From Auricularia sp. M13 (Eukaryota > Basidiomycota > Agaricomycetes > Auriculariales > Auriculariaceae), in the NCBI GenBank assembly GCA_037042915.1, contig CM073193.1, positions 4,154,001 to 4,218,000 of the forward strand: a DNA stretch of 64,000 nt, given 5' to 3'. The notes under the pieces were generated by a model. That model saw only the letters and a list, made by a program, of their open reading frames with translations, was not told the origin of the DNA and ran no database searches. Made by a program: the position numbers and the translations under genes. This document shows positions 1,561 through 52,500 of this stretch, piece by piece (the stretch's first letter is position 1; every line of letters begins with the position of its first letter).

Positions 1561-3338
1561 TTAGTTGTCATCCACGTCGATGTGGAAGCGGCCAATCGTG
1601 AAGATGCGCCGCTTCTTCACCGACTCAGACGGCGACGCGCTCCAGAGATTGCACGATGGAGTAGCTGAAGCCGACGACGTCTCGGTGCTCGTAGTCGACG
1701 ATGGCTCGGTGCTTGTGGTTGACGCAGACTCAGTGCTTGTGGTAGGCGCCGGCTCGGAGCTCGTGGTTGCACCTTCACTTCCCGACGTTGTGGTTGGCGC
1801 AGAAGTCGTCGTGTCAACCGGAGGGGTCGTCGTCACAGGGACGTCCGGCGCTCCGCCAGACTCGCCGAACGAACCCACGTACGCGTTGAAGTTGTACTTG
1901 TCGCACGAATCCTGGATGTCGAGGCCGCCGTCTCCTCCAAGGATAGCCGCGCCGTCGCGCGCAAGCGCAAAGGTCTGCTTCCCGACACCCATGGTGAAGT
2001 TGCTCGTGACAATGCCCGCACCGACTTCGACGCTGACAGGCGCCTGCGTGCCACTGGTGACCGTCAGAGTCGCAGGTGCGGTCAGCAGCGTCGTGACGAA
2101 GACGAGGTCCTGAAGGTACTCCCTCCCCTGCGGCGCCGGGAGTGTGTCGTTCGAGCATTGCACATCCTTGGGCGTCGGGCGGTACCTGAGTCGCAGGGGG
2201 CAATGAGCCTCGGAAAATGGTATCGCGGAACACATATTACCAGTAAACCAGTTGATCTTGTTCAACGGTCGGTTTATCTGCGCCAGCCTTGTACGCAGCG
2301 ATGTATGGCTTCATGATTGCGCGCCAGCTGCTCGCGCATTAGCCACATATACGACCCGTGAGCTTCTGCATACCCGTCATGAGGGAATCCATCCGCCCAT
2401 TCCGACGAGCCGTCGTCGTCGTGGTTCGGCTCTGGCCCAGAAATGTAGTGGCTCTCGCCAAAGTCATTCCATCTGCAAGTTCAACACGTGAGCTTGAGGG
2501 CCTGCTAATAGATTCCTCCGCGTACGTGATGATCTCTATGAGGCCTGGCTTGAGCGCAAGCATCTGCTCCCAGCGGTCGGTAATAAGCTGCTCGCAAATG
2601 AAGACCCAGTTCTTGCTGTTGAAATGCGTCGAGAACCAGGGCGAGACGGGCGCGAGGTAGACTTTGTCTTCGAGATATTTGAAGTAGCCCTCGTCCCAGA
2701 TAGTCGAGATTGGGCCAGGCTTAATGGAGTTACCGCCGTCGGTTGGCCATGCATACCAGCTGAGCGCGCCGTCGATGCTCTTCTGGTTGTTCTGCGCCTC
2801 GATCGGGTCTTGCAGGTGCGGTAGCGCAACGAGCTTACTCCCGAGCGCTGATTTCACAGGGCCCCAATCGAACGAGTCGCCGACGAACGTGCTGGCAATT
2901 TGTCCGCCGTCGTACTTGGCCTGCGCAGGGTGCGAGCTGTAGTTGGCGAGGATGCCCGTAATCAATTCGGTGTCGTCGTTCTGCCAGTACGCAAAGTCGA
3001 ACGAGACGAAGACCGTAAAGTTGGTCTGCTGAGCGGCCTCGTATGCATTCGCCAGCTGCTTCGGCGTGTACGAGTCCACGCGTGGAGGCGCGCAGTTCAG
3101 CGCAAAGCCATCGATGCCGATTTCCTTCGCTTGCAGCATGTCGGCTTTCCAGTCTTCTACGGTGTAGTCCCTGACAATGCCGACCTAGGAATCTCGCTTC
3201 AGGACAAGTCCCATCGCGGTCGCGTAGCCGATGACGGACCATAAAGTGTGCGTAGACGGCCTTGTCAGTCTGGGCAGAGGTCACTCCTCCGAGAAGCGCT
3301 GCTGCGACTGCAGACGCAGCCATGAAGCTGAAACCCAT
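1561..3338 (-). CDS. Secreted GH71 alpha-1,3-glucanase (mutanase-like)
   Basis: Predicted endo-acting alpha-1,3-glucan hydrolase, acting outside the cell on fungal wall or polymer glucan. The start at 3338 gives a signal peptide (MGFSFMAASAVAAALLGGVTSA), then DKAVYAHFMV, typical of the GH71 N-terminus. The frame continues through IGIDGFALN, VSFDFAY, YDGGQIASTFVGD, the YAWPTDGG region and IITWNDFGESHYI, all GH71 hallmarks. Exons: about 3338-3240, 3184-2527, 2473 onward; a further intron (GTAATATG...CTCAG near 2200-2260) joins QLVYW to YRPTPKDV. The intron between DFGESHYI and PYIAAYKAG (about 2320-2370) has no in-frame GT-AG solution; a GC-AG intron or a 1-nt error is possible. The C-terminus carries a Ser/Thr-rich linker (about residues 460-510), probably O-glycosylated. 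An 880-bp inverted-repeat element lies about 185 bp upstream of the start. Confidence 0.88.
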
Positions 3339-4733: not shown

Positions 4734-5839
4734 ATGCTTGCTCGACATGTTTTCCGCGCAGCGACGAGACGGTATGTCTTGAGGGCACCGCATTCGCTGC
4801 AACGGCGTACCTTCATTCGAACTGCCCTTGCGCCCGTGGCAGACCAAATCGTTGAACTGTCGACGGCACTGCCATGGCCACCAATGTGGCCTCCGTATGC
4901 TAGCACTATAATCTTGCTCGCCCTTCTGAGCCGTGCAGCTGTCCTTCCCATATCGATATGGGTACGTAGCCTTCTGCCCTATTCATGGTGTTCTTTTGAA
5001 CCGTGTTGCAGGGTAAACGGAAACAGTTCATCGTGGAAGATGTCGTCTTCCCCGAGCTGAAACGCAACGCAGCTGAAATCAAACAGCGTGCTGCGCGCGA
5101 CGTCAAGCTTGCAGTAGGTGAAGTCACTACACCGGAAGCTCGCGAGGAACGAGGGCAGTTGGCACAGAAGAAATTCTCTGAGATGGTGCGTCTGGTATCG
5201 GGTCCATGTTGGCAGTTGCGCTTAGAGCCTGTCGATTCAGATGCAAGCTCGCCAGCGGGAACTCTTCAAAGCTTTAGGATGCAGCCCGGTTAAAATCATG
5301 GCGATTCCAGCCCTGTCTCAACTGGCGGTGTTTCTACCCATGACGCTTGTTTTCAGCCTCATGTCGATGCCACCCACACCGCTGGACTCCGAGGCTTTCC
5401 TCACATTCACGACGCTCACGCATCCCGATATGGACTATGTCACGCCTGTCGTGCTTGGCCTCATCAGCATGGCGACCGCGGACGCCTCACGGTGGTTCAT
5501 CTCGCCGGACCGGTCACGCGAGCTCGAGCGCCGCGACCAAGTCAGCTTGGAGCGCTCGCGTAAGACGAGGCTGCAACTCAACTTCGGCAAAATTGCGACA
5601 ACCGCTGCGCGGCAAATGGCCATTGCGCGCATTGTCATCGGCATGCTCATGCCTGGGGTACGTTCCGTTTGCGTGTAAAGCTTGGAGGGGTGGCTGATTC
5701 GCTACAGTCCGTGATGGTGTATTGGCTCACGTCCTCGACGTTCGGCTTATTACAAGCATGGGGATTCCAATGGTGGGCGAGACGTCGGCACCCGACTTCT
5801 CTTCCTGTGCCGCCATTGCGCATCGGTCGAAAGGTTTAA
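4734..5839 (+). CDS. COX18: Mitochondrial inner-membrane insertase, Cox18/Oxa1/YidC family
   Basis: Predicted to insert membrane segments of mitochondrial proteins, in yeast notably the C-tail of Cox2. Four exons (4734-4961, 5012-5185, 5241-5657, 5708-5839) give about 316 aa with all junctions in phase. The N-terminus MLARHVFRAATRRYVLR is rich in Arg and lacks acidic residues, as in mitochondrial presequences. The Oxa1 fold follows: a first membrane segment (ASTIILLALLSRAAVLPISI), a charged coiled region (KRNAAEIKQRAARDVKLAV), the KALGCSP...IPALSQLAVFLPMTLVFSLMS segment and a last pair of membrane segments ending VYWLTSSTFGLLQAWGFQWW. The length and the very short C-tail favour Cox18 over Oxa1, which has a long ribosome-binding tail. 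Confidence 0.88.
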
Positions 5840-6448
5840 GTGAGTCGCGCTCCATGATCATATCCCCATGATTATACAAAGTGGTAGAAGGAACCTTCCG
5901 AAAATGGAGACCAGTTTCTCCTGGGTTCATCGTGATTTTCTCTTGATCTAATATGACTCTTACATGACCGCTGCTACTTACAAATGCTGATTAACTGTCT
6001 AGAGTTCCTGGCCGGGGAGGTCTTGGATCAGAACATTCTGATATTTGCGGCAACACCAGCCTGTCTTCTTCACCATACTGCCAAGGGATGCTTCGCCATG
6101 TCATGTATTCTTTGACTGAAGTGAAATCCGCCGACCGTCGCTAATAAAACTGTGAGCCTCAAGCTGAGAGCTCGACTAATGAGTTCAGATTCTGGGCCTG
6201 TAGTTTCGCCCGCGAAACTTGATACCCTGACATTTAGGTGGGAAAACTGCGAAATATTAGCCTAAGCTACGCGCTTACCCAGGGATTGCTCATTGGGACG
6301 TGTCCTCCGAAACAGTCCACATTGGTGGTGCGAGCATCCTATTCTCTCAATGAAGCGACTTCATGCATATTGTCTGCAAAGCCTGACATGTTTTTGTAGC
6401 TCAGAATTATGGGAAACCACTTACAGCGGGGATGATCGGACTACAAAC

Positions 6449-9109: not shown

Positions 9110-10244
9110 AATGTGCTGCCTTTTCTGTTTGATTTTTGTATTATCCCATTCAGGAATACCATCTGTTACGAGGAAGTGAAAAACTTTATGATATCTTGCC
9201 CCCAACACTTTTCCTTCCCTCCAAACCTTTTGCGTTGTATTCCCATACATGAATTACAAGGGGGTTAGAAGTTTTTTTTTGGAGGGAACATGTGCAGAAG
9301 ACGGCAAGGCGCTGTCACGGAGTGCGCCAAAAGACCGACCAGACAAGGTACTCAGGAGGAGGAGAGGCCAGGCATGTTATGGGCATGGTCAAGATCCAAC
9401 CTAGAGTACACTGATCAGCGATAGCCGGTAACTATAGCGTGACCGGAAGCAAGGGGAGCACAGCCACACCACCATACAGTCAGGACTGAGATGGGGGATA
9501 GAAGGGGTGAACACCGGGGTGATGACCAAAGGGAAACACACAAAATAAAAGAGGGACTGAGGGAGCATCGGCGACGCAAGGGAACCTCGGAGAAGCGAGG
9601 AATGGGGTGAATACAGTACTGAAAGCAGCAACGAATCAAAGGTGGGAGGGAATATACTAAACTAGAGTCCATGCCTATCGGGGTATCGTGTGGGTATCTG
9701 GAAAAGACTGAGACCAGGGAGTACACGCGCCGCGGCACGGGAAGACTGAGAGCCCAGAGCCCGGAGCCCGCAATGCGGCAAAACTGAGACCGCAACCAAA
9801 TGTGGGAACACGGCCGATAGGAGTGTACCATAGTCCGAGCACGCACACGACCTCCCATAGTGAATGGAGGACTGGCCAGTGTGGCAGGGAAGTCAACGAG
9901 GGTGCCGGCGAGTGTAGAACGGAGGCCAAAGGGCCTGAGGTGTGCCACCGGAGCATATGGGACCAAGGTGGTCTTCACGGCGTGCGGTGACAGAGGGCGG
10001 CGGATGCGGACTGAGCGTTGATAATGGTGACGCGAGAGAGGCATGGACGCAGGACACCGCCGCGAATCACAACACGCTATGTCTGCCTTTCCAGGAAGTT
10101 CTACCTGGCTGTCTCCTGTTCCTGCCAAGTGTCAGCAATGACAAGGGGGAGCTGCAAGCAACATGGCCAAGTGGGAAAAGAGGCAAGGATGACATTGGGA
10201 CCCGATGCAGGTATATATACATCAGGTGGCACAATGGATGAAGG
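9110..10244. other. Gene-poor region before the LTR element
   Basis: About 1.1 kb. The longest frame (minus 9415-10128) has low-complexity composition and no recognisable domain. GAAGG at 10240-10244 is the left target-site duplication of the following retrotransposon. I see nothing else supportable. Confidence 0.5.
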
Positions 10245-10969
10245 TGTTAAGCCTGCTGTGCCTTGGGGGTTTGGTTGCAAGGATAGTCGAACGTCCGGGC
10301 GCAGAGAACACTCGAACGAACAACTAGAGCCTTCGGTGCGTTATTGAGCACACCGGCTACGTCGAGTAGCACGACCGAAGGGACCACGAGCAGCAGAGGA
10401 CTCAGACGAGTAAGTCGGGCGAAGGGAGAATCCAGAGGCGAAGCCGAGAGAGAGAGAGATAGAGTGTGCGAGGGGCACGACTATGTCGATTTCGTAACTG
10501 GGGAGCTAGATACAAAGTCGAGGGTCTTTTATACCTGGGGAGGTGATCCGATGTACTCGGAGTGTATCCTAGAGACGAAGGAGAGGGGCCTCAGATCAAT
10601 AGGGATCGTCGTCATCGGCCGATAGGATGAGTAAGAGCGAGTGGGTAAGGTATCGGGGAATCGGGCGAATGACGAGAGGCGAATGACTAAGACGAGTGGA
10701 GCGAACCGGATATGAACACTATCGATACAGTAGGGACAAGGCGAGTTAGGTGGATGTATGCGAGTAAGGAGAGAAGCTAGAGAAGTGAGGGAGAGGTCTA
10801 GAGGTAGAGGACGATGAGGAGAACATATCCCGAGCATATGAACACGAGGGGAGATAAGCCGGGTATTCGGGAGCTTGACCGAGTTGACCGAGTTGGCCGA
10901 GTGACGTAGAATGACGCCGAGTGATGCCGAGAGCACGTGGGGTCCGCGGACCGGGGCACGGGCGTAACA
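10245..10969 (-). repeat. 3' LTR of the Ty3/gypsy element
   Basis: Partner of 18141-18865, the same length and identical except at one position that I could find. It begins TG and ends CA on the plus strand. Because the element reads on the minus strand, this copy is the 3' LTR. Confidence 0.95.
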
Positions 10970-11167
10970 GTATCCCCCCTTTACGTCCTGAGCCCACGAA
11001 GGACTGCAGCAACGCAAGGGGAATACGAAAAATGAGATAGCACGCACTCGAGTCCGAATGGGGCCAAAAGATCGGGTCGGGTCGGAACGGGTCGGACGCA
11101 GATTAAAAGTGGTTGGGTCGGGAGTTGAATCGTCGAACCACTCTTGTCTTCTGCCCGCCCGCCCACC

Positions 11168-12405
11168 ATGCCGCGTTACGAATCGCTCGAGGACGTCGCC
11201 GCCGCGTACGACCGCAAGACCGTCGGCGCCGTCATGAGGTCGCTCGAGGACGACCCGACGATGGAGGCGCTGATCGCAGCACACGAAGACGCGAAGCGGA
11301 CGCTCGGCGGCCTACAGCAAGAGGCCGTCGACGAGGAGGACCTCGACGCGATCGAGGCGCTCAGCGCGCGCAGACGCCAGGCGAAGGCCGAGCTGCGCCT
11401 GGCGGCGCAGCGACGCCGGGATGCTGGCCGAGCGCGTGGCCAAGATCGCGCGGACGCGGGCGCCAAGGCGACGAAGAGCCAGGCGTCGCCGGCGAAGGCG
11501 CCGACCACGAGCACGAAGGCGCCGGCGAAGGACGCGAGGGAGACCGAGTCGCCGCCGAAGAGGCGGAAGGCCATGGAGGTATGGGTCGAGCTCCCGCGAT
11601 TGCGGGACGTTGCTAAGGTGCGCTTATTTTGCAGGTCGAGAGCGCGAAGACGACTCAGGCGCCGCGCAAGGTCGCGCCGAAACCCGCGCCGGTCGCGGTC
11701 GCTCGCTCGCCGTCGCTCGGGGCGGGCGAGACGCTCGAGGACGACGACGAGGTCGAGGAGCTCGCGAGCCCGGTGGCGCCGGCCGCGAAGCCCAAGCCCA
11801 AGCCCAAGCCGCGCGCGGGCGGCAAGTTCACGGATAGGTGGCCGGAGGTGCCGTACGGGACGCGGTTCCCGAGCCAGGTGAGTTTTTTGGTTGTTCGTGT
11901 TTTGCTCGCCGGGGCTGACATCGAGCAGTGCGAGGCTTGCGCCAAGCGCGGCGGCCAGTGCGTTCGGCAGCACCGGTCGAACACATGCACCGCGTGTCAT
12001 CAGACCCGGGGCAAGTGTACGCACTCGGGCAAGCCGTTCGTGCCGCGCGGCGAGAAGAGGGCGGCGTCGCCGAGTGCGTCGCCCGAGCGCCCCAAGAAGG
12101 TGCGCATCGTCGAGGGGACGACGCTGGGGACGAGGGCAGCCGAGGACCGCGCGAAGACGGCCGAGCACCGCAGGGTCGTGGAGAACCACGCCCTGTGGAC
12201 GAACAATTCGGTGCACAACATCGAGCGGATGTTGTACCGGATGCTGCAGTGGCAAGCGCAGCAGTTCGGCCAGTCGATCGACGATTCGATCGACAATCCG
12301 TTTTCGAGCGAGGAGGAAGAGGAGGCCGAGGAGGAGGTCGAGGAGGAGTCCGAGGAGGAGGACGAGGAAGCGGTCGAGGAAGCGACCGAGGACGCGGACG
12401 AGTAG
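11168..12405 (+). CDS. Antisense Zn2Cys6-like protein carried by the retrotransposon
   Basis: A 376-aa protein encoded opposite to gag-pol, between the chromodomain stop and the 3' LTR. ATG 11168 has a strong start context (CCACCATGC). Exons 11168-11578, 11635-11877 and 11929-12405 join in phase. Intron 1 (56 nt) has GTATGG, a GCTAAG branch site and TTTTGCAG; intron 2 (51 nt) has GTGAGT, CTGAC and GAGCAG. Exon 1 encodes a charged helical segment (SLEDDPTMEALIAAHEDAKR), then K/A/P-rich linkers. Exon 3 opens with C-x2-C-x6-C-x8-C-x2-C-x6-C (CEACAKRGGQC ... CTACHQTRGKC), the spacing of fungal Zn2Cys6 clusters. A helical part follows (NNSVHNIERMLYRMLQW), and the tail is about 35 residues of almost pure Glu/Asp. 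Nucleic-acid binding is inferred. A GC-rich frame on the other strand is probably a shadow. Confidence 0.75.
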
Positions 12406-12524
12406 GCGATCGAATAGAGTAGTAGCGGGTGCGACCAAAGTCGCCCAAAATGTAATAAATGGCTGTTTCTTGGAATCGAGTAAAAGCGAGTGAGCGAAGA
12501 AATAGCGAGTGAAAAAGCGAGGGC

Positions 12525-13052
12525 TTAGATGTTTTCGAATTTCTTGAGGATCTGCTGGAATTCTTGATAACTGCCGGGAGCGCTGGGATTTGCAGCATAG
12601 AAGTCTTGAACTGCTTCTTGCGCGTGTTCGAGATTTTCGGAACCCATCTCGGTGGTCTCGGGGTCGTCGGGAGTGCCGATGTGACCGATCCAGCGAATGC
12701 GAAAACGAAGGCGCGAGTGACGATGGCGATTGTCGATGCGTACGCTGAGTACTTCGAGCTCGTACTCTTGCTCGCCGTCGACGACGACGGGCGGAGGAGG
12801 TTCTTGACGTTGACCGGGGAACACTTCTCGAGGGTGGGGTTCGAGTTGCGAGACGTGAAAGACCGGGTGTACGCGAGCGAGGTAGTCGGGTAGGCTGAGG
12901 GTGAACGATTGCGAGCTAGGTTGATCGACGATCGGGAACGGGCCTAGGTAGCGATCGGCGAGTTTGCGAGTGGGCTGCGTCGTCTTGATGTGTTCCGAGA
13001 GGACGTAGGCCATGTCGCCGACCTTGAAGTCAGGCGGGGGTGCGTCGAGCAT
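12525..13052 (-). CDS. Retrotransposon Pol C-terminus with chromodomain
   Basis: This frame continues the integrase C-terminus: DFKVGDMAYVLSEHI, then RKLADRYLGPFPIVDQ and ARVHPVFHVSQLEPH, all standard at the end of Ty3/gypsy integrases. It then has a chromodomain-like segment (EYELEVLSVRIDN ... LRFRIRWIGH ... ENLEHAQEAVQDFYA). Such domains direct integration towards marked chromatin in related elements. It is out of frame with the Pol ORF by one base at a run of five C on the coding strand (about 13034-13038). One base fewer there would fuse the two frames into ...RTPPDFKVGD. So this is part of Pol, separated by an indel, an assembly error or a recoding site. Confidence 0.85.
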   Translation of the reverse strand: MLDAPPPDFKVGDMAYVLSEHIKTTQPTRKLADRYLGPFPIVDQPSSQSFTLSLPDYLARVHPVFHVSQLEPHPREVFPGQRQEPPPPVVVDGEQEYELEVLSVRIDNRHRHSRLRFRIRWIGHIGTPDDPETTEMGSENLEHAQEAVQDFYAANPSAPGSYQEFQQILKKFENI

Positions 13053-16000
13053 TCGCAGATGCAGTGTAACGTTTCTGAGCGGCAGCGATCTGCTCCTTCA
13101 GGACGTCCTGCAGTTCGTGGATGTCGACAGCGAAGTCGCGGGCGCGAGCAGAGGCAACGTCGCGCTCGGGGTAGACGGAGATGTTCGGGTGAAAACCCTT
13201 GTTGGCGAAGAAAGGCGAGACACCAGTCGAGTCGTTCGGGGTGTTGTTGTACGTGAATTCGGCGAGAGGGAGTAGCTCGGACCAGTTGTCCTGCTCGTAG
13301 TTGCAGTAGAGACGGAGGTACTGCTCGAGCGTCTGGTTCGTGCGTTCGACTTGACCGTTCGCCTCCGGGTGGTGACCCGAGGTGAAGTGCATGGTCATGT
13401 TGAGGAGCGAGCCGAGTGCGCGAAAGAAGCGGGAGACGAATTCGGAGCCGCGGTCGGTAGAGACGTGCGAGGGAGCGCCATGTTTGGCGAAGACGTGGAT
13501 GAGGAAGAGACGCGCGAGTTCTTCGGAGGTGATCTTGCCCTTGGTCGGGACGAAGATACCCTGCTTCGAGAGGCGATCAATAATGACGAGGATCGCCGTG
13601 TAACCGTTGGACTCAGGGAGTTGTTCGATGAAGTCCATCGAGATCGAGTCCCAGTTGCGAAGCGGAATCGGGAGCGGTTGAAGTCGACCGTACGGCTTGT
13701 GTCGTCGAGGTTTGCTGCGCCCACAGGTGACGCAGGCCTGGACGTAGGTACGAATCGAGTCGCGCAGGTCGGGCCAATAGTACTCGCGGGCGACCATCTT
13801 GAGTGTCTTGTTCTGACCCGGATGGCCAGCGAGCGGGTGATCGTGCTTTTCGCGAAGGATACGAAGGCGACAATCGAGAGCGTTCGGTACGTAGATCCTG
13901 CCCTTGAACAGCAAGAATCCATCGTCTGAGGCCGACCAGTTGATCGCGTCATCGGTGCCGAGTTTCGAGCGAATGTCGAGAGCGAGTTCGTCCGAGTCGT
14001 ACGAGGCGCGAATGTCATCCCGAATGGACTGGGTGTCCATGATTGTGGCTGCGCGAAGGAAAGTCTCTTCAGCATACGTCGCGCGAAGGGAAGCGGCGAA
14101 CTGTTCCGAAGTAAAAACAGGTCGGAAGTTCTGCGGGTTTGCGCTGGCGTAGCCACCATCCCCCCTTTTGAGATAGACGTCGTGGCGGCGAGTGAGAGCA
14201 TCGGGTTTGCCGCCGAGTCGACCGGGTCGAAAGCGAATGAGGAGGTTGAAGGTAGAAAGGTACTCGGACCAGCGAGCTTGCCGACGAGTGAGCATCTTCG
14301 TGGTAGAGAAATACTCGAGGTTCTTGTGGTCCGTGACGACGTCTATTGGGGTCTCGGCCCCTTCGAGGTAGTGTCGCCATAGTTCGAACGCCTCGAATAT
14401 CGCGAGTAGCTCCTTGTCGTGCGTGTCGTAGTTGAGCTCGGTGGGAGTGAGCGTGCGCGAATGGAAAGCGACGGGGTGAACAGAGCCGTCCGGGAGGACG
14501 TGCGAGAAGATCGCCGCGATCGCGTAGTCGGAAGCGTCAGTCTCGACGACGCGAGGGAGAGCGGGATCGAAGTGGTGAAGGACGGGAGCGCAAGTGAACG
14601 CCTTCTTGAGCTCGTTGAACGCAGCGAGGCATTGCGGAGTGAAGTTCCACGTTGCGGTCTTTCGAGTGAGACGAGTGAGCGGGACGACGATATCGGAGTA
14701 GTCGTAGATGAATCGTCGATAGAAGTTCGCGAAGCCGAGGAACGACTGGATGTCGCGAACGTTGCGAGGAACGGGCCACTCGAGGAGGGTGGCAATCTTC
14801 TTCGGGTCCATGCTGATGCCCTCGGGGCTGATGATGTACCCGAGGTACTCGATGGTGTTAGCATGGAACTCGCACTTCTCGGGCTTACAGAAGAGGTCAT
14901 TCTCCCGCAGCCGTCGAAGGACCTCTCGAACGTGTTCCTCATGCTTCGAGGGATCGTCCGAGTAGATGAGGATGTCGTCGAGGTAAACGGTAACCGTGAC
15001 GTCGAGGAGGTCGGAGAAGATGTCGTTCATGAAGCGCTGGAAAGCGGCTGGAGCGTTCGTGAGACCGAAAGGCATGACGAGATACTCGTAGGTGCCGTAG
15101 CGCGTTCGAAAGGCAGTCTTCCACTCGTCGCCGGCAGCGATGCGAACGTTGCTGTATCCGACACGAAGATCGAGCTTGGTGAACTTCTTGGCGGTGCGAA
15201 GGCGGTCGAGCGTGGACGAGATGAGCGGAAGCGGGTACTTGTCCTTCCGAGTGATCTTGTTGAGCCCACGATAATCGACGCATAGGCGAAGAGAACCGTC
15301 GGCCTTCTTGACGAAGAGAACCGGGGCGCCACCCGGGGACGACGAAGAGCGAATGTGTCCTTTGCTGAGGTTATCCTGAATGTACTCCCGAAGCGCGAGT
15401 TGCTCGGGCTCGGAGAGCGAGTAGATCGGACCGGATGGGAGAGGCTTGCCTTCTTCCATGTCGATCTTGAGATCGTACGGCCGATGTTCAGGGAGTCGAT
15501 TCGAGGCCTCCTTTGAGAAGACGTCGAGGAACTCGTGATAACACTCGGGGATGCCTTCGCCGGTTTCCGAGGCCGGGTTGGCAGACGCAGAGCGAGCGGG
15601 CACCGATGGATCTCGAATGTAGATGGCCGAGACCATCGAGCCGCGAAGTCGACGAGAGGTGTCGAAGGCTGCAGCGCCGATGATCTTGATGTCGACGAGC
15701 AGCGGCCGCGCGAAGGGCGGTTTCGTCCATCGGCGGTTCGGGAGGCAGAGTACGTGACGCGGGAGGAGGTGACGACGGAGTCGGAGGATCCGAGTCGAGC
15801 GAAACCCAGGGACGAAACCCGAGGGATCCGAGGGCGAGACACGAGTGGGGAAAGAGATGCGGTGATGGAACCAGTCAATCCTAGGATTGTAGCGGGCCAA
15901 CCAGCGGTATCCCAGCACTGCAGAGCAAGTCGGATCTAGAGTGGTGAGGAGGAAGTTGATGATCATCGAAGTTCCGCAAGGGAAGCGGACGGGAAGCGAC

Positions 16001-16233
16001 ACGTATTTGGAGATAACACCGCGATAGGAGCCGTCGAAGAGCCGAAGGCGTAGCGGTTGATCGAGAGACTTTTGAGGGAGTCGAAGACTCTCGGCGAACT
16101 GAGTATCGAGGAACTGATCTTCGGAGCCGGAGTCGACGAGTGTGCGAAAGGATGGGACAGCGTCGGAGGAAAGGACGACGATGAGAGCGTCTTGATCGGT
16201 GAGCGCGGCAGCGTTCAACCGAGTGTAAGGCAT
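13030..16233 (-). CDS. pol: Retrotransposon Pol: protease, RT, RNase H, integrase
   Basis: About 1,067 aa from ATG 16233, whose frame begins MPYTRLNAAALTD; it lies 22 nt after the Gag stop. Domains in order: aspartic protease with LVDSGSEDQFLD; reverse transcriptase with LRLCVDYRGLNKI, VMPFGLTNAPAAFQ and catalytic VYLDDILIYS; RNase H with VETDASDYAI, DKELLAIFEAF and VVTDHKNLEY; integrase with an HHCC zinc finger (HPGQNKTLKM ... CVTCGRSKP) and the DDE core (SMDFIEQLP, VSTDRGSEF, GQVERTNQ). The frame is open further upstream to 16437 across the Gag zinc knuckle, but that part is low-complexity and looks like a shadow. Pol is in the +1 frame relative to Gag, so expression could use +1 frameshifting in the overlap or termination-reinitiation. 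Confidence 0.95.
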   Translation of the reverse strand: MPYTRLNAAALTDQDALIVVLSSDAVPSFRTLVDSGSEDQFLDTQFAESLRLPQKSLDQPLRLRLFDGSYRGVISKYVSLPVRFPCGTSMIINFLLTTLDPTCSAVLGYRWLARYNPRIDWFHHRISFPTRVSPSDPSGFVPGFRSTRILRLRRHLLPRHVLCLPNRRWTKPPFARPLLVDIKIIGAAAFDTSRRLRGSMVSAIYIRDPSVPARSASANPASETGEGIPECYHEFLDVFSKEASNRLPEHRPYDLKIDMEEGKPLPSGPIYSLSEPEQLALREYIQDNLSKGHIRSSSSPGGAPVLFVKKADGSLRLCVDYRGLNKITRKDKYPLPLISSTLDRLRTAKKFTKLDLRVGYSNVRIAAGDEWKTAFRTRYGTYEYLVMPFGLTNAPAAFQRFMNDIFSDLLDVTVTVYLDDILIYSDDPSKHEEHVREVLRRLRENDLFCKPEKCEFHANTIEYLGYIISPEGISMDPKKIATLLEWPVPRNVRDIQSFLGFANFYRRFIYDYSDIVVPLTRLTRKTATWNFTPQCLAAFNELKKAFTCAPVLHHFDPALPRVVETDASDYAIAAIFSHVLPDGSVHPVAFHSRTLTPTELNYDTHDKELLAIFEAFELWRHYLEGAETPIDVVTDHKNLEYFSTTKMLTRRQARWSEYLSTFNLLIRFRPGRLGGKPDALTRRHDVYLKRGDGGYASANPQNFRPVFTSEQFAASLRATYAEETFLRAATIMDTQSIRDDIRASYDSDELALDIRSKLGTDDAINWSASDDGFLLFKGRIYVPNALDCRLRILREKHDHPLAGHPGQNKTLKMVAREYYWPDLRDSIRTYVQACVTCGRSKPRRHKPYGRLQPLPIPLRNWDSISMDFIEQLPESNGYTAILVIIDRLSKQGIFVPTKGKITSEELARLFLIHVFAKHGAPSHVSTDRGSEFVSRFFRALGSLLNMTMHFTSGHHPEANGQVERTNQTLEQYLRLYCNYEQDNWSELLPLAEFTYNNTPNDSTGVSPFFANKGFHPNISVYPERDVASARARDFAVDIHELQDVLKEQIAAAQKRYTASANARRTPA

Positions 16234-16255
16234 CTTGGGCTTGACGCAGTTGGCC

Positions 16256-16603
16256 CTAGATGCCCGTGGGGAACTGCCCGTTAGTTTTCGCTTCCGCCGG
16301 GGCAGAAGCGGCGGCGCCCGAGGGAGCGGGAGCCGGCGTCGAGGAAGTCGCGGGTTGAGCCTTAGCGGCGCGACCCTTCGACTCGCGATTGTGAGCGGCC
16401 TTGCGGCACTCGGACGCGGTGTGGCCGGCATGGCCACAGTAGAGGCAGAGGTTGTTATCGAGGCGTCGGCGTCGTTCGGCGTCGTTGAGCTTGCCGTTCG
16501 AGTTGAGGTTCTTCGCGACGTCGTCCTTCGACTTGGTCGTGGTCTTCGAAGACGAGCGGGCCGAGGTCGAGGACTGACCCCTCGAGTTCGAGTGGTTGTT
16601 CGA

Positions 16604-16634
<31 letters not shown>

Positions 16635-18108
16635 GAGCGCGCGTTGGACTTGGTGTTCGATCGGGAGCCCGATTGAGGCGTCGCGGTCGAGGTGGTCTTC
16701 TGCGCTTTACGGGGTTCGTTCGCGTGCTCGAGAGCTTGCTCGTCCTTATCGATCCAGTAGTTGGCGTCGATGCTAAGAGCGAGCGCAGCGAGTGGCGTCA
16801 GAGAAGCCGGGCGTTGAGCTACTTGAGCAGCGAAGACAGATTTGATGCGGCGAGGGAGTCCGCGATAGAATTGCGAGGCGAGTGCAGCGTCGTCCCAGCC
16901 GAGCAGTTTGGCGTATTCGTCGAACTGGAGCTTGTAGCGGGCGACCTTGCCGTTGTCGGCCATTTGCAGTCGTCGAATCTTGACTTCGGCGCGTTCGCGT
17001 TCGTTCGTGACGCCGAAGGTGATCGTGAGTTCGTTCTTGAATTCGTTCCAGTCTTCGAGGAACTCGTAACCGGGAGGCGGATTCGGGACGAGAGGAACGT
17101 AGCCGCCCCACCATTCCTTCGCCCGACCCGAGAGATAGGTCGCGGTGAAGAGAATCTTCTCGCGGGACGTCTGGTACTTCCGAGGGTTGGCGAGGAAGTA
17201 GGTTTCGCAGTCGATGAGGAATCCGCGAAGTTTGTTGGCGTTTTCGCCGTCGAATTTGTCGGGTTTGGCGGCGTCGATGCGAGAGCCGCTGTCGCGGTCG
17301 ACGAAGTAGACACGAGGGACGTTGTCGTGTTGATCGTGGAATTGTCGTTCGCGATCGACGTCCGAGTCGTAGCCGTCCGACGGAGGGTCGAAGGGAGGTC
17401 CCGGGGGACCAGGAGGATCGTTACCGCCACCACCGCCCCCACCGCCGCCACCTCCGGGAGGAGGGTTCGGAGGGTGCGAGCCGTGCGAGTGGTGCGAGTG
17501 GTGCGAGTGGTGCGACGAGGGCGAGGGAGCACCTCGATGACCACCACCGCCACCGCCGCCTCCGCCGCCTCCGCCTCCACCGCCGCCACCTCCGCCGCCT
17601 CCTCCGCCACCCCCGCCGCCACGCCGGGGCGTGTTAGGGGTGCCGGATGGGAAGAAGCCGCGGAACGACGAGGAGTGCTGCGAAAAGCGAGGAGTCGAGC
17701 GAGAGCCGGTGTACGGAACGAGCGCGAGAGGGTGTCGAGAGCCGAGCGAGTGAGTCGAGGGATGCGAAGGCGATCGCGTCGTGTGACTTGAGGGAGGGTA
17801 GGAACCGCTCGGGTCCGCGCGTAGTGTGGACTGGGCCGGCGAAAACGCGAGGTGTGAAGCGAGCCGGAGAGAGTGTGTTGCGAGAGGATTTCGTCATCAT
17901 CGTTCGGCGGTTGCGAGTGCCGAGATGATCCGAAGCGGCTAGTGCCCGACATCGAGACTGATGGCGAAGGCGTAGCCGGCTGAGGAGGTTGTTGGTCGCG
18001 AAGACGAGCCTGACGACGGGCTTCGCGAAGGATAGCGTCGGGGGAGTCGAGTAGAGGATGAGGTTCTTCCTGGTTTCTTCTGAGATTCTGTCGAGTCCCA
18101 AAGGCCAT
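16256..18108 (-). CDS. gag: Retrotransposon Gag with zinc knuckle (one frame break)
   Basis: The C-terminal two thirds is one clear frame. It has a Gly-rich and His/Ser-rich low-complexity zone (about 17400-17640), then a retrotransposon capsid core (KPDKFDGENANKLRGFLIDC, LSGRAKEWWGGY, FLEDWNEFKNELTITFG, YKLQFDEYAKLLGWD) and a CCHC knuckle CLYCGHAGHTASEC, ending FPTGI. The likely start is ATG 18108 (MAFGTRQNLRRNQEEPH), just after the priming site, in another frame. The two frames must join between about 17900 and 17640, where the core frame runs Ser/His/Pro-rich. With such recent LTRs this is a fresh indel, an assembly error or, less likely, an intron. Confidence 0.85.
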
Positions 18109-18127
18109 ACAACTCGAGCGGAGCTCG

Positions 18128-18138
18128 AGTTACGAAAT
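18128..18138 (-). promoter_or_regulatory. Self-complementary primer-binding site
   Basis: Two bases inside the 5' LTR end the element reads ATTTCGTAACT. This is an exact 11-nt complement of AGTTACGAAAT within the LTR (plus 18385-18395), at the position where the RNA should start given the TATA box. No obvious tRNA 3'-end complement (TGG...) is at the LTR edge. The Tf1/sushi group is known to prime this way with 11 nt. Confidence 0.75.
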
Positions 18139-18140
18139 AC

Positions 18141-18865
18141 TGTTAAGCCTGCTGTGCCTTGGGGGTTTGGTTGCAAGGATAGTCGAACGTCCGGGCGCAG
18201 AGAACACTCGAACGAACAACTAGAGCCTTCGGTGCGTTATTGAGCACACCGGCTACGTCGAGTAGCACGACCGAAGGGACCACGAGCAGCAGAGGACTCA
18301 GACGAGTAAGTCGGGCGAAGGGAGAATCCAGAGGCGAAGCCGAGAGAGAGAGAGATAGAGTGTGCGAGGGGCACGACTATGTCGATTTCGTAACTGGGGA
18401 GCTAGATACAAAGTCGAGGGTCTTTTATACCTGGGGAGGTGATCCGATGTACTCGGAGTGTATCCTAGAGACGAAGGAGAGGGGCCTCAGATCAATAGGG
18501 ATCGTCGTCATCGGCCGATAGGATGAGTAAGAGCGAGTGGGTAAGGTATCGGGGAATCGGGCGAATGACGAGAGGCGAATGACTAAGACGAGTGGAGCGA
18601 ACCGGATATGAACACTATCGATACAGTAGGGACAAGGCGAGTTAGGTGGATGTATGCGAGTAAGGAGAGAAGCTAGAGAAGTGAGGGAGAGGTCTAGAGG
18701 TAGAGGACGATGAGGAGAACATATCCCGAGCATATGAACACGAGGGGAGATAAGCCGGGTATTCGGGAGTTTGACCGAGTTGACCGAGTTGGCCGAGTGA
18801 CGTAGAATGACGCCGAGTGATGCCGAGAGCACGTGGGGTCCGCGGACCGGGGCACGGGCGTAACA
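18141..18865 (-). repeat. 5' LTR of the Ty3/gypsy element
   Basis: 725 bp, paired with 10245-10969. On the coding (minus) strand it holds a TATA box and the predicted RNA start. It is followed on the right by GAAGG, the duplicated target site. Confidence 0.95.
18422..18429 (-). promoter_or_regulatory. LTR TATA box
   Basis: TATAAAAG on the minus strand, about 34 nt upstream of the base that starts the 11-nt match to the priming site. That is a normal TATA-to-start distance, so the two signals support each other. The same box is in the other LTR. Confidence 0.7.
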
Positions 18866-18870
18866 GAAGG

Positions 18871-49522: not shown

Positions 49523-52500
49523 TTAACACACCTGGTAGGTAAGTGTGGGGCTTGGAGGCTGCTCAACCCACTCCTGTGGCTTGAGCGCCTCCGTACCCAC
49601 TAAAACTCCGGGTCGCCATCGTGCAGTTTCTATCGCGGCAAACGAGTAATTGTCCATGTTGAGGCAATTCATCCAAGTTTCCTTGGCCAACCATTCCGAG
49701 ACCGGCCAGTGCTTGTAACGCTGGCGGTTGGACAGGAGCCTGTCCCTGAGGCTGCGTAGCTTTATTGTTCTAACCCAGCGCGCGCGAGCTTCGGCGTTGG
49801 AAACAGTCCAGTCAGGATCCTCCGAATGCTCGATCCTCTTCTCACATCGCATCTTCCATATGAGGAACGCGGATTCCGATACAACTATGCGGAAGGCTCT
49901 TTCGGCCGCCTTGCAACGGTTACTGCTAAAATTTCCGACGTGCATCGTCCCGCAGCCCAGGATCATGCCCATATCAATATCCACCTTGATCCGTTTGTGC
50001 GCAAAAAACCGTCGGACCAGGCCCCATATGAGCTCGTGCGGCGTATCTGGGCATTCTAGAAGTATATGTTCCATTGATTCCGTAACTTCGCACGTCGGGC
50101 ATCGCGCGTAACTTCGCCATGGCTCCGGCATGTTGCTGAAATACTCGCCGACTTTATGTGCGCCATGCAGGCATTTCCACATGAAATTCCTGACATTTCG
50201 TGAGAAATCCCGCGTCCGTAGGCTGTTCCATATTTGTGTTGTGGTCGGCGCGTGGCCCCGAGCCCGCGCAAGGCTCCCTTTTACCATTTCGATATTCGCG
50301 GCCGTCGCTCGCCGGGTTCCGGACTTGGCCAGCTTCGCATACTTGATGGCCCGATGTGCCAGATTCTGTGATATACCCTGGATAGATAACCCAGGCTTAT
50401 CAAAGCTTACAAAGTTCAGCATGTCGACTTCGCGTACGGGCCCTAGGTCCGCCGCAACTTCCGCCGTCTTCTTCGCATCACAAATCTGCGGCCAGTGCTG
50501 GGCTCTTTTTTTATTGATGAAGGTGAAAGTAGTTTCCGCCGTGCGCGCACGCAGGGCGCAGACTGCTGCGCGCAGGGCATCTGCTTCCCGCGGCATATCC
50601 AGCCAGCCTCGAGATTCGTGGAAGTGGAGGCGTGTTGTCAGCACCATGACGAGCTGTTTACAGGTCGATACGAGGTGCAGGGGCTGGTTCGCCGGGACCT
50701 GAGATATCGCGACGATCGCCGCGATCGCTACGCTTCTAATGTAGCTGTGTTGCATGCCAGGGCAAAAGCCTGCAGAGTCTTCAGCATCGCCGTCTGGGAA
50801 TACAACGGCGTAACCCCCACGTGCATCGTTCGTGTCCGCTAGACACATCGCGCCGTAGATGATTGCTTGGATAGGTTCTGGTATCAAGGCAGACGGTTCT
50901 CTTTCTACTGCTGCAGCTCGCATAGTTTCGGCCGCGCTCCTGCCTTGTAAGGCCAGGGAATCGACAAATGCGCGATAGTAGTCTGCGGCGTCGTCGCCAG
51001 GGTCTAGACGTGGATCGAAAACTATGGCCTCGCCATCTGCTATCGCATTCGCGCGCTGGTCTTCGAAGACCGTCCATAAATCCGGCTTCACTTCTGCGCA
51101 TGCTGTGGAGGTGTTCCATTTGCCCATGATGCTGCTCAAAATATCTTCGGCGAGGAGTTGACACCGGTATGGTTTCCTGCATCCTTCTGCACGGTCCGTC
51201 ATGCAGTCCTCGCACGCGCAGTCAGTGGCGGCCTCGTGATCCTCGTGGTCCGGCTCAGCTAGTTCTTCCAGGTCCTCCACAGTTCTCACTGCATGGTGGC
51301 GTCGTATGCATCTGATCTCTGGCTTACCGCGCCTCAGCGCGTCCGGATCCGCCAGAGCTGGGTGAGCCCAGATTGGCATTGATTCCCGAACTTCCGATGA
51401 GATCACCGGTGCGCCGAGGACAAGCTGGTGCTTTTTTGCCACTCTAACCATTTGTCGCATAAAAAAAGGCAGTTTCTTTGGATTCGTCCGCCACGCCTGG
51501 TAAAAGGGGTTTATTCTTGCATCTGTGGGAACTAATCTGCGGTCTTTTCCTATAATAGCCGCTCTGAAAATATGGTCGGCAATAAAGGCCCAGGTCGGGC
51601 GCACTTCAGGCTTTGCGAGGTACGCTCCTACCCACGTGAGATACTGGGCTTCGTTTCTTTCCTCAGCGCAGAACAGGCCTATCCCACCATTGTCTTTAGG
51701 TTGGCGGAGCACGTCCATATTGATTGGGTGTCTTCGTGCTCCTCCCCACAGGAAGTCCAACGTGAGTTTGTCTAGTTTCTGTTCCATTTTTGTAGGCATG
51801 CCCTGAGCTGCCGTCAGGAATTGTGTGTATCCTCCTACTATGACCTGCGACAGCATGCTCCTGCCGTTCATGCTCGGACGTCGCCGTTCCCATTTTTCGA
51901 ATGCGTCTTGTATGCGGTCCATAATGACCGACCAGGCGTTCGCATTTTCTACGCCGTTCCCAGGCCACGTCCCAAGAATACGCGTTGGCTCGCCGTCCGT
52001 GGCGATTCTCACTCCGTCTGGGAAGGGCGCCGAGACCGGGCTGAGGCGCCGCGACTCGATTAGCTCTGCGCGATATGCTCTAGAGCCCAGGGGAATGATC
52101 TCAGTCTTTGCGACGTTGAATTTCGCGCCTGACGCGAGACACCAGCTATCGAGGATTGACGCCAGAAGATCGTATGAGTCGTCCTCGTGCAGGTAGACGG
52201 TGGTGTCATCCGCGTATAAGGTCGCGATTAATTTCTCTTGCAGTCCCTCAATTTGGTAGCCGCGCAGGTTCGACCTGCGCATCATTGCTGACAATGGTTC
52301 AATTGCCAGGTTGAACAATAGGCAGGACAGGGGGTCGCCCTGTCGGACCCCCCGCGTCACTCGGAAGCGCGAGCTCAAGAACCCGTTTATCATGACCGAT
52401 GTGTACGCATTTTCGTACAGAACTTTAACTTGGTTGACAAAATGTTCTGGGAAGCCGAAGCGCTTCAGTACTTCGTGGAGATAATCATGCCGTATGCGGT

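Follow-up and report, generated by a model that had tools for sequence, protein, structure and literature searches.

LTR elements that carry an extra antisense gene are already known as a general kind. Among fungi, the brtn gene of Boty-like elements was reportedly described by Zhao et al. in 2011 (Virology 417:248). Later papers, in the excerpts consulted here, present brtn of the Boty-like elements of Botrytis cinerea as an extra antisense gene (PMC7264820, PMC8365987, PMC4227169). Antisense extra ORFs are likewise on record for plant Gypsy elements, as the preliminary description of the present locus had stated, and in the consulted portion of PMC7264820, what the antisense accessory genes of LTR elements do is still described as unknown. 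Some recently active Retand elements are non-autonomous, according to excerpts of PMC11963269; the words intron and zinc are absent from the main texts of PMC7264820 and PMC11963269. The retroviral genes HTLV-1 HBZ and HTLV-2 APH-2 are antisense, spliced and start in the 3′ LTR, and HBZ inhibits Tax activation of the viral LTR, as stated in excerpts of PMC3185765. Where fungal and moss elements are concerned, the part consulted of a study of Tcn1-like chromoviruses goes no further than a figure legend naming one additional ORF whose function is unknown (PMC2864245), and the words antisense and zinc are absent from the main text of ‘LTR Retrotransposons in Fungi’ (PMC3248453). The excerpted open-licence literature gave no description of a fungal element whose antisense gene has six Cys residues or introns. 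The novelty proposed in the preliminary description thus stands in part: Boty, a chromodomain-bearing Gypsy element of a fungus, had already been published with its antisense gene brtn, and it is the six-Cys and intron-bearing character for which we found no precedent in those excerpts.

Here, we analyze such a gene in a 64,000-nucleotide stretch of the genome of Auricularia sp. M13 (hereafter the window; source genome 52 Mb in 14 contigs). The host element, which we call family A, is a Ty3/Gypsy element on the minus strand of the window (10245–18865); the antisense gene lies on the plus strand between its pol and its 3′ LTR. The features are listed in window coordinates.

10240–10244, no strand: left copy of the target site duplication (TSD) GAAGG, read directly, pair confirmed
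10245–10969, minus strand: 3′ LTR, 99.86% identical to the 5′ LTR by self-BLAST
10970–10983, minus strand: polypurine tract, minus-strand TAAAGGGGGGATAC, adjoining the 3′ LTR, read directly
10984–11167, plus strand: presumed promoter and 5′ UTR of the antisense gene
11168–11578, plus strand: exon 1, with a basic PPKRRK stretch near its 3′ end; pN/pS 0.33 (36 copies)
11579–11634, plus strand: intron 1, GT..AG, branch word CTAAG; divergence 0.125 (36 copies)
11635–11877, plus strand: exon 2, with an AGETLE motif common to family B; pN/pS 0.60, the weakest constraint
11878–11928, plus strand: intron 2, GT..AG, branch word CTGAC, phase 0, abutting the first Cys
11929–12405, plus strand: exon 3, with the six-Cys domain, a basic stretch, a predicted long helix, the acidic tail and the stop
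12454–12459, plus strand: AATAAA, within the 119 bp that separate the stop of the gene from the end of the facing pol-tail ORF
12525–13052, minus strand: integrase C-terminus, with a Tf2-1-type SH3 domain (PF24626, E 3.9e-15) and a chromodomain-like tail
13030–16431, minus strand: pol, with aspartic protease (sub-threshold), reverse transcriptase (RVT_1), RNase H, H2C2 and integrase by Pfam; pN/pS 0.12 (17 copies)
16432–18126, minus strand: gag region, assigned by position
18128–18138, minus strand: self-priming-type primer binding site (PBS), minus-strand ATTTCGTAACT, complementing AGTTACGAAAT in the LTR (18385–18395)
18141–18865, minus strand: 5′ LTR, from self-BLAST and LTR comparison
18866–18870, no strand: right copy of the TSD GAAGG, pair confirmed

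The two 725 bp LTRs differ by one mismatch and GAAGG is duplicated at both ends, in keeping with the young LTR element of the preliminary description. A polypurine tract similar to that of family A adjoins the LTR of family B, a second Gypsy family of the same genome. Two features ally family A with the Tf1/sushi-type chromoviruses: i) a Gypsy-order pol (reverse transcriptase, RNase H, integrase) with a Tf2-1-type SH3 domain, and ii) the self-priming PBS, whose complementarity to the LTR is an 11-nt match made up of three overlapping 9-mers, with the LTR site lying 34 nt from the start of TATAAA (18424–18429). The integrase tail aligns with the tail of family B, which is PF00385-positive (4.4e-9); in the Pfam search, the tail of family A itself was without a score for Chromo. 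In the window copy, the integrase tail ORF is in a different frame from the rest of pol, the two overlapping at 13030–13052, and with pol split in this manner, the window copy need not itself be active. Within the gag region, one minus-strand frame is stop-free over 16432–17400. Among 20 longer loci of the genome, the longest RT-bearing open frame ranged from 0 (L027, which is cut) to 1455 residues (L025). Elsewhere in the window, a second reverse transcriptase (RVT_1) is found on the minus strand at 52094–52747 in an open frame of 1829 residues, and a spliced-looking plus-strand gene at 4734–5850 presumably encodes a protein resembling mitochondrial Oxa1/YidC-type insertases, judged by eye.

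The antisense gene had been read as a 376-residue, intron-bearing gene, and its exon coordinates and intron ends bear this out. The three joined exons total 1131 nt, corresponding to 376 codons and a stop; the introns, 56 and 51 nt in length, are both bounded by GT..AG and both in phase 0, because the exon lengths of 411, 243 and 477 are all divisible by three. The encoded protein carries six Cys residues with the spacing C-x2-C-x6-C-x8-C-x2-C-x6-C and a Glu/Asp tail, just as first reported. In exon 1, compensating small indels put a short segment of the window copy in another frame relative to most open copies.

With the 1238 bp gene as query, the genome yielded 42 places representing at least 40 loci (40 of 57 candidates scored); besides the window copy, there are 39 loci, 20 of which hold most of the element and 19 the gene only. 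The signals expected of a spliced gene recur throughout: the ATG is present in 37/40 copies, its start context CCCACCATGC in 33/40, GT-AG ends at both introns in 38/40, and AATAAA less than 60 nt from the stop in 37/40. The branch sites proposed earlier are likewise retained (CTAAG in 38 and CTGAC in 39 of the 40 copies). Intron lengths vary narrowly, between 56 and 59 nt for intron 1 (37/40) and between 49 and 52 nt for intron 2 (39/40), with no regard for multiples of three. By a strict test, the exons are fully open in 17/40 copies, two of which (L010 and L018) stay open through long out-of-frame stretches that are later compensated. A count of nuclear localization signals (22/40 copies) was discarded, as exon 1 had been translated through frameshifts.

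Substitution patterns were compared in 36 copies, the damaged L043, L044, L046 and L047 being left out. The pN/pS ratio was 0.32 in the spliced frame of the antisense gene, and 1.33, 1.55, 1.26, 1.75 and 0.54 in the other five frames, the last value belonging to the opposite-strand frame with which third positions are shared. The comparison of nonsynonymous with synonymous change that the preliminary description had proposed hence points to the plus-strand spliced frame rather than to the opposite strand. By exon, pN/pS was 0.33, 0.60 and 0.24; divergence reached 0.125 and 0.100 in the introns and 0.037, 0.041 and 0.053 in the exons, and each of the six Cys residues was kept in 36/36 copies. 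In the 17 more complete copies (the window copy and 16 of L009–L028), the ratio for the gene was 0.20 overall and 0.13 for exon 3, the latter near the values for pol (0.12) and part of gag (0.14, 16432–17400); that of the integrase tail was 0.08. On these sequence comparisons, the antisense ORF is almost certainly a real gene that codes in its spliced frame. As a separate observation, the stretch 11168–12524 is a local island of older variation relative to 13030–17400, its introns and 3′ spacer being highly diverged as well.

When did this constraint act? Two LTRs were found in 17 of the window copy and the 20 longer loci, with a perfect 5 bp TSD in 16/17; the LTR pairs differ at 0–3 of about 720 sites in 16/17 copies and at 8 in the remaining one. 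The genes, on the other hand, differ between copies by 3.4% on average. Because LTR pairs are nearly identical while the genes are 3.4% apart, most gene differences predate the insertions and arose during replication of the element; the constraint thus belongs to the life cycle of the element, and the introns went through rounds of reverse transcription. Persistence of the introns through retrotransposition, as claimed in the preliminary description, is thereby seen in many independent insertions. They would survive reverse transcription because the sense genomic RNA holds only their complement.

The association of the gene with the element was surveyed using 901 bp of the integrase end as query (40 of 66 candidate places scored). 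The antisense gene was found, whole or in part, at 38/40 of these pol-anchored places, some of them truncated: 34 places at a distance of 294–300 bp (DNA matches), three at 373–394 bp (one truncated gene, two by exon 3 matches), and one, L019, at 4.5 kb with another element inserted between. The two gene-less places, L049 and L053, are cut off inside the gene, of which the last 38 and 156 bp remain. Both the region and its Cys residues (36/36 analyzed copies) persist in other copies, a point on which the preliminary description had made its reading depend. L049 and L053 were among six RT-anchored stretches checked for gene-less elements; of the other four, L052 belongs to family B, and L048, L050 and L051 were uninformative, holding neither pol nor gene (L050 only 56 bp of LTR). 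The gene is thus antisense to gag-pol, placed between pol and the 3′ LTR, kept in most copies and conserved in its protein, as are the genes termed aORF-3R. Pairwise distances for LTR, gene, integrase tail, pol and gag in the 17 copies, compared in ten pairings, gave no correlation at p < 0.05, the lowest value being 0.052 (LTR with integrase tail), which suggests recombination among elements, perhaps by template switching.

The Zn2Cys6 consensus is CX2CX6CX5-12CX2CX6-8C. The Cys spacing of the family A protein falls inside this consensus of the Gal4/LAC9 class (PF00172), with all six Cys residues conserved, and to this extent the ‘Zn2Cys6-like’ label of the preliminary description holds. The profile searches give it less: Pfam Zn_clus did not match the window protein or that of family B, and the family C and locus D proteins described below scored 10.1 and 8.1 bits, under the cut-off of 21. 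A profile of the four families searched against the PDB retrieved the Zn2Cys6 protein LAC9 as the best match at a non-significant E of 0.047, followed by unrelated tankyrase chains (E 1.1) ahead of two further Zn2Cys6 proteins (1.7 and 1.8). A single-sequence structure model of low confidence (pLDDT 65, pTM 0.24) places beta hairpins at the CxxC motifs; strands at the Cys residues are not clearly the two-helix fold of Gal4, and a helix is predicted after the cluster. The beginning of the Zn_clus profile pairs, in family C, with the second triplet of Cys residues, and the half-motifs of that family may be swapped relative to Gal4. The spacing, the six invariant Cys residues and LAC9 as best profile match are suggestive of a zinc cluster. 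CGG-triplet sites upstream of the gene, considered as candidate binding sites, were rejected, showing no enrichment over dinucleotide shuffles (family A, 9 seen, mean 12.2; family B, 8 seen, mean 9.5).

A same-genome protein search with the conserved half gave, beyond family A, weak matches at 26–39% identity. Family B (L057) has a pol 79.5% identical to that of family A over 1100 residues and, between pol and the 3′ LTR, an antisense gene for 414 residues with two introns and exon lengths of 426, 198 and 621, each divisible by three. The two antisense proteins align only over family A residues 162–275 (30% identity in 122 alignment columns, E 1e-6), a part that takes in the AGETLE motif of exon 2 and the six Cys residues. 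In three copies of family B, intron 2 has GT..TAG ends in 3/3, and intron 1 begins with GT in 2/3, the donor being aligned as AT in one; for L058 and L059, only the intron ends were used, together with exon 3 for L059, as the alignment began inside exon 1.

Family C is a 4.2 kb LTR element. Its complete copy in L019 (2712–6910), which is inserted in a family A copy, where it separates the integrase end from the antisense gene, has 480 bp LTRs matching at 99.8%, a 5 bp duplication CTCAC, a polypurine tract and a self-priming site with a 12-nt match (around 3085–3205). A Pfam scan of eight of its larger reading frames returned a PF00385 chromodomain (4.6e-9) only, with no gag or pol domain recognized. 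A sense ORF starts with this chromodomain, and an antisense six-Cys gene with one recognized intron adjoins the 3′ LTR. The antisense gene lay beside the chromodomain part, on the other strand, at 25/25 places (25 of 25 candidates scored), with a gap of 158–178 bp at 24 of them, one of the 24 being interrupted; four gene places were without a chromodomain match. By tblastx, family C gave low-grade matches only to families A and B, from which we draw no homology. Locus D (L054:169–1008) is a single-copy six-Cys gene, with the end of contig C1 roughly 25 kb away and no element or pol recognized in the 1.6 kb read, and may be a domesticated copy or a donor of the element genes. Additionally, the minus strand of L060 (G000:C11:2283500–2286000) holds a further, diverged six-Cys sequence close to an LTR-like stretch matching family B, perhaps representing another family.

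The six-Cys regions of the three element families are about 28–43% identical in tblastn pairs, and the middle loops of B, C and D are longer than that of A. The last intron is in phase 0 in all four, and the first Cys follows its end after 0 codons in A and D, 1 in C and 3 in B, with D represented by one sequence; we read this shared place as common descent of a spliced gene, and it serves as a marker of homology even though the proteins themselves are by now hardly recognizable as related. The acidic segment is C-terminal in A and D, precedes the Cys residues in B and follows them directly in C; as its position varies, its role may differ.

The protein search that the preliminary description had suggested, for antisense relatives in chromodomain elements, hence succeeded within this genome, in families B and C, and not among public proteins, where the window protein had no relative at E 0.001 among 7994 candidates and residues 198–345 none at E 1 among 57 candidates. 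Pol, in the same database, matched 7200 of the 7944 candidates scored, with 68–76% identity for the top five and some lower ones named after mushrooms, so that fungal chromoviruses are indeed contained in it. The negative for the antisense protein is a weak one, because a lone exon 3 (158 residues) falls outside the length range searched and many entries were presumably called without introns. In IMG/VR, 11 pattern matches for the gene were returned, none of them confirmed, and nothing for pol.

Taken together, these data show the antisense gene to be a genuine third gene carried by a Gypsy lineage of the chromodomain type. They are also compatible with a model in which it encodes a trans-acting, nuclear DNA-binding regulator of the LTRs of its own element; we put the probability of this regulator reading at roughly 0.5. 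Transcription would begin at a promoter beside the 3′ LTR, and the mRNA would be spliced and receive its poly(A) tail at the AATAAA that lies between the two opposed genes. The protein would enter the nucleus by way of its PKRRK-type stretches and bind DNA in dimeric form, using the six-Cys zinc cluster together with the helix that follows; the acidic stretch would adjust transcription or chromatin at the element’s own LTRs, in trans. The antisense layout would let the gene keep its introns, with reverse transcription copying them from their complement in the genomic RNA. Since family C keeps the gene and a chromodomain with no recognized gag or pol, a nuclear or chromatin task carried out for the element itself is indicated. 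Several element families in one fungus thus probably each encode a small regulator for themselves. Beyond this, we tentatively propose, at odds somewhat short of even, an old class of regulators of retroelements that has so far gone unnoticed. It would consist of a zinc-cluster gene with introns, passed in antisense through reverse transcription since before the split of A, B and C, common to chromoviruses and to a two-gene LTR element (chromodomain protein and regulator), with locus D as a single-copy descendant or donor.

The main rival to a regulator of the LTRs is integration targeting, in which the protein accompanies the pre-integration complex, or is in place before it arrives, and acts jointly with the chromodomain to direct the cDNA into chromatin or grant it entry. 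The linkage of the gene to a chromodomain or chromodomain-like tail in all three families (in A and B this is the tail of the integrase, in C a sense ORF of its own) would fit such a role, as would the retention of both functions by family C, which could target its own cDNA with no recognized gag or pol; a similar idea has been raised for plant antisense genes in the consulted portion of PMC7264820. However, plus-strand expression from an inserted copy would be uncoupled from particle assembly, and we consider this role unlikely.

Divergence between families bears on a further alternative, that the protein is a self-limiting repressor (a copy-number or immunity factor) and that families have diverged in escaping mutual repression. 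The antisense proteins of A and B are only 30% identical (122 columns), as against 79.5% for pol (1100 residues), and within family A, pS of the gene is 0.069, about threefold higher than that of pol (0.022) and gag (0.026) in the 17 copies; HBZ inhibits activation of its viral LTR, according to excerpts of PMC3185765. Yet the introns and the downstream spacer have diverged also, placing the excess beyond amino acids alone, and selection within family A is purifying and not diversifying. Retention of a self-repressor by family C would be harder to explain, rendering this alternative improbable.

It is very improbable that the antisense transcript rather than the protein is the functional product, acting through dsRNA or siRNA against the sense genomic RNA. 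The transcript would overlap the 3′ part of the genomic RNA completely in antisense, and an RNA role has been discussed for plant elements (PMC7264820, in the part consulted), but the frame-specific purifying selection, the kept splice sites around freely varying introns and the six invariant Cys residues are constraints of which RNA complementarity needs none; RNA as the sole function is thereby disfavored. Recent capture of a host gene as a functionless passenger transduced by the LTR element, to which the single-copy relative at locus D, with no element recognized in the 1.6 kb read, might point, is contradicted by the copy and family distribution of the gene, which is whole or partial at 38/40 pol-anchored places, present in three families and under selection, and is scarcely credible.

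Within the reach of these searches, the gene is new in four respects: the protein it encodes, the introns it bears, its repeated occurrence in three element families of a single fungus, and the fact that one of these elements has just two recognized genes. The strand of the gene offers an explanation for introns that persist through reverse transcription, and family C suggests that, of all the functions of a chromovirus, the chromodomain ORF and this antisense gene are those for which a parasitic element has to provide its own copy.

Among the systems compared, HBZ is a bZIP protein, and to our knowledge it has no six-Cys cluster. The bZIP family is not among the Pfam matches of the window protein, and the ATG-bearing exon 1 of HBZ lies in the LTR, unlike that of the family A gene; the two would have arisen independently, and HBZ is a comparison of how such a gene works only. 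Boty, in the excerpts consulted, shares with family A a fungal host, a Gypsy pol, a chromodomain and an extra gene placed in antisense in the interval from pol to the 3′ LTR; its host is an ascomycete, and brtn is compared here by this layout, as given in citing papers, so that it may or may not be a homolog of the family A gene. PF04195, the family of TRP28, is not among the Pfam matches of the window protein (E up to 10). The plant aORF-3R genes (Grande gene23, RIRE2, Retand ORF4/TRP28 and PvRetro13), though their hosts are plants, resemble the family A gene in position, orientation and presence in most copies, and, in the portions of the sources consulted, a nuclear or DNA-binding role is suspected for them, as it is for the family A protein. 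A six-Cys, probably DNA-binding protein makes the question of what such antisense genes do a testable one.
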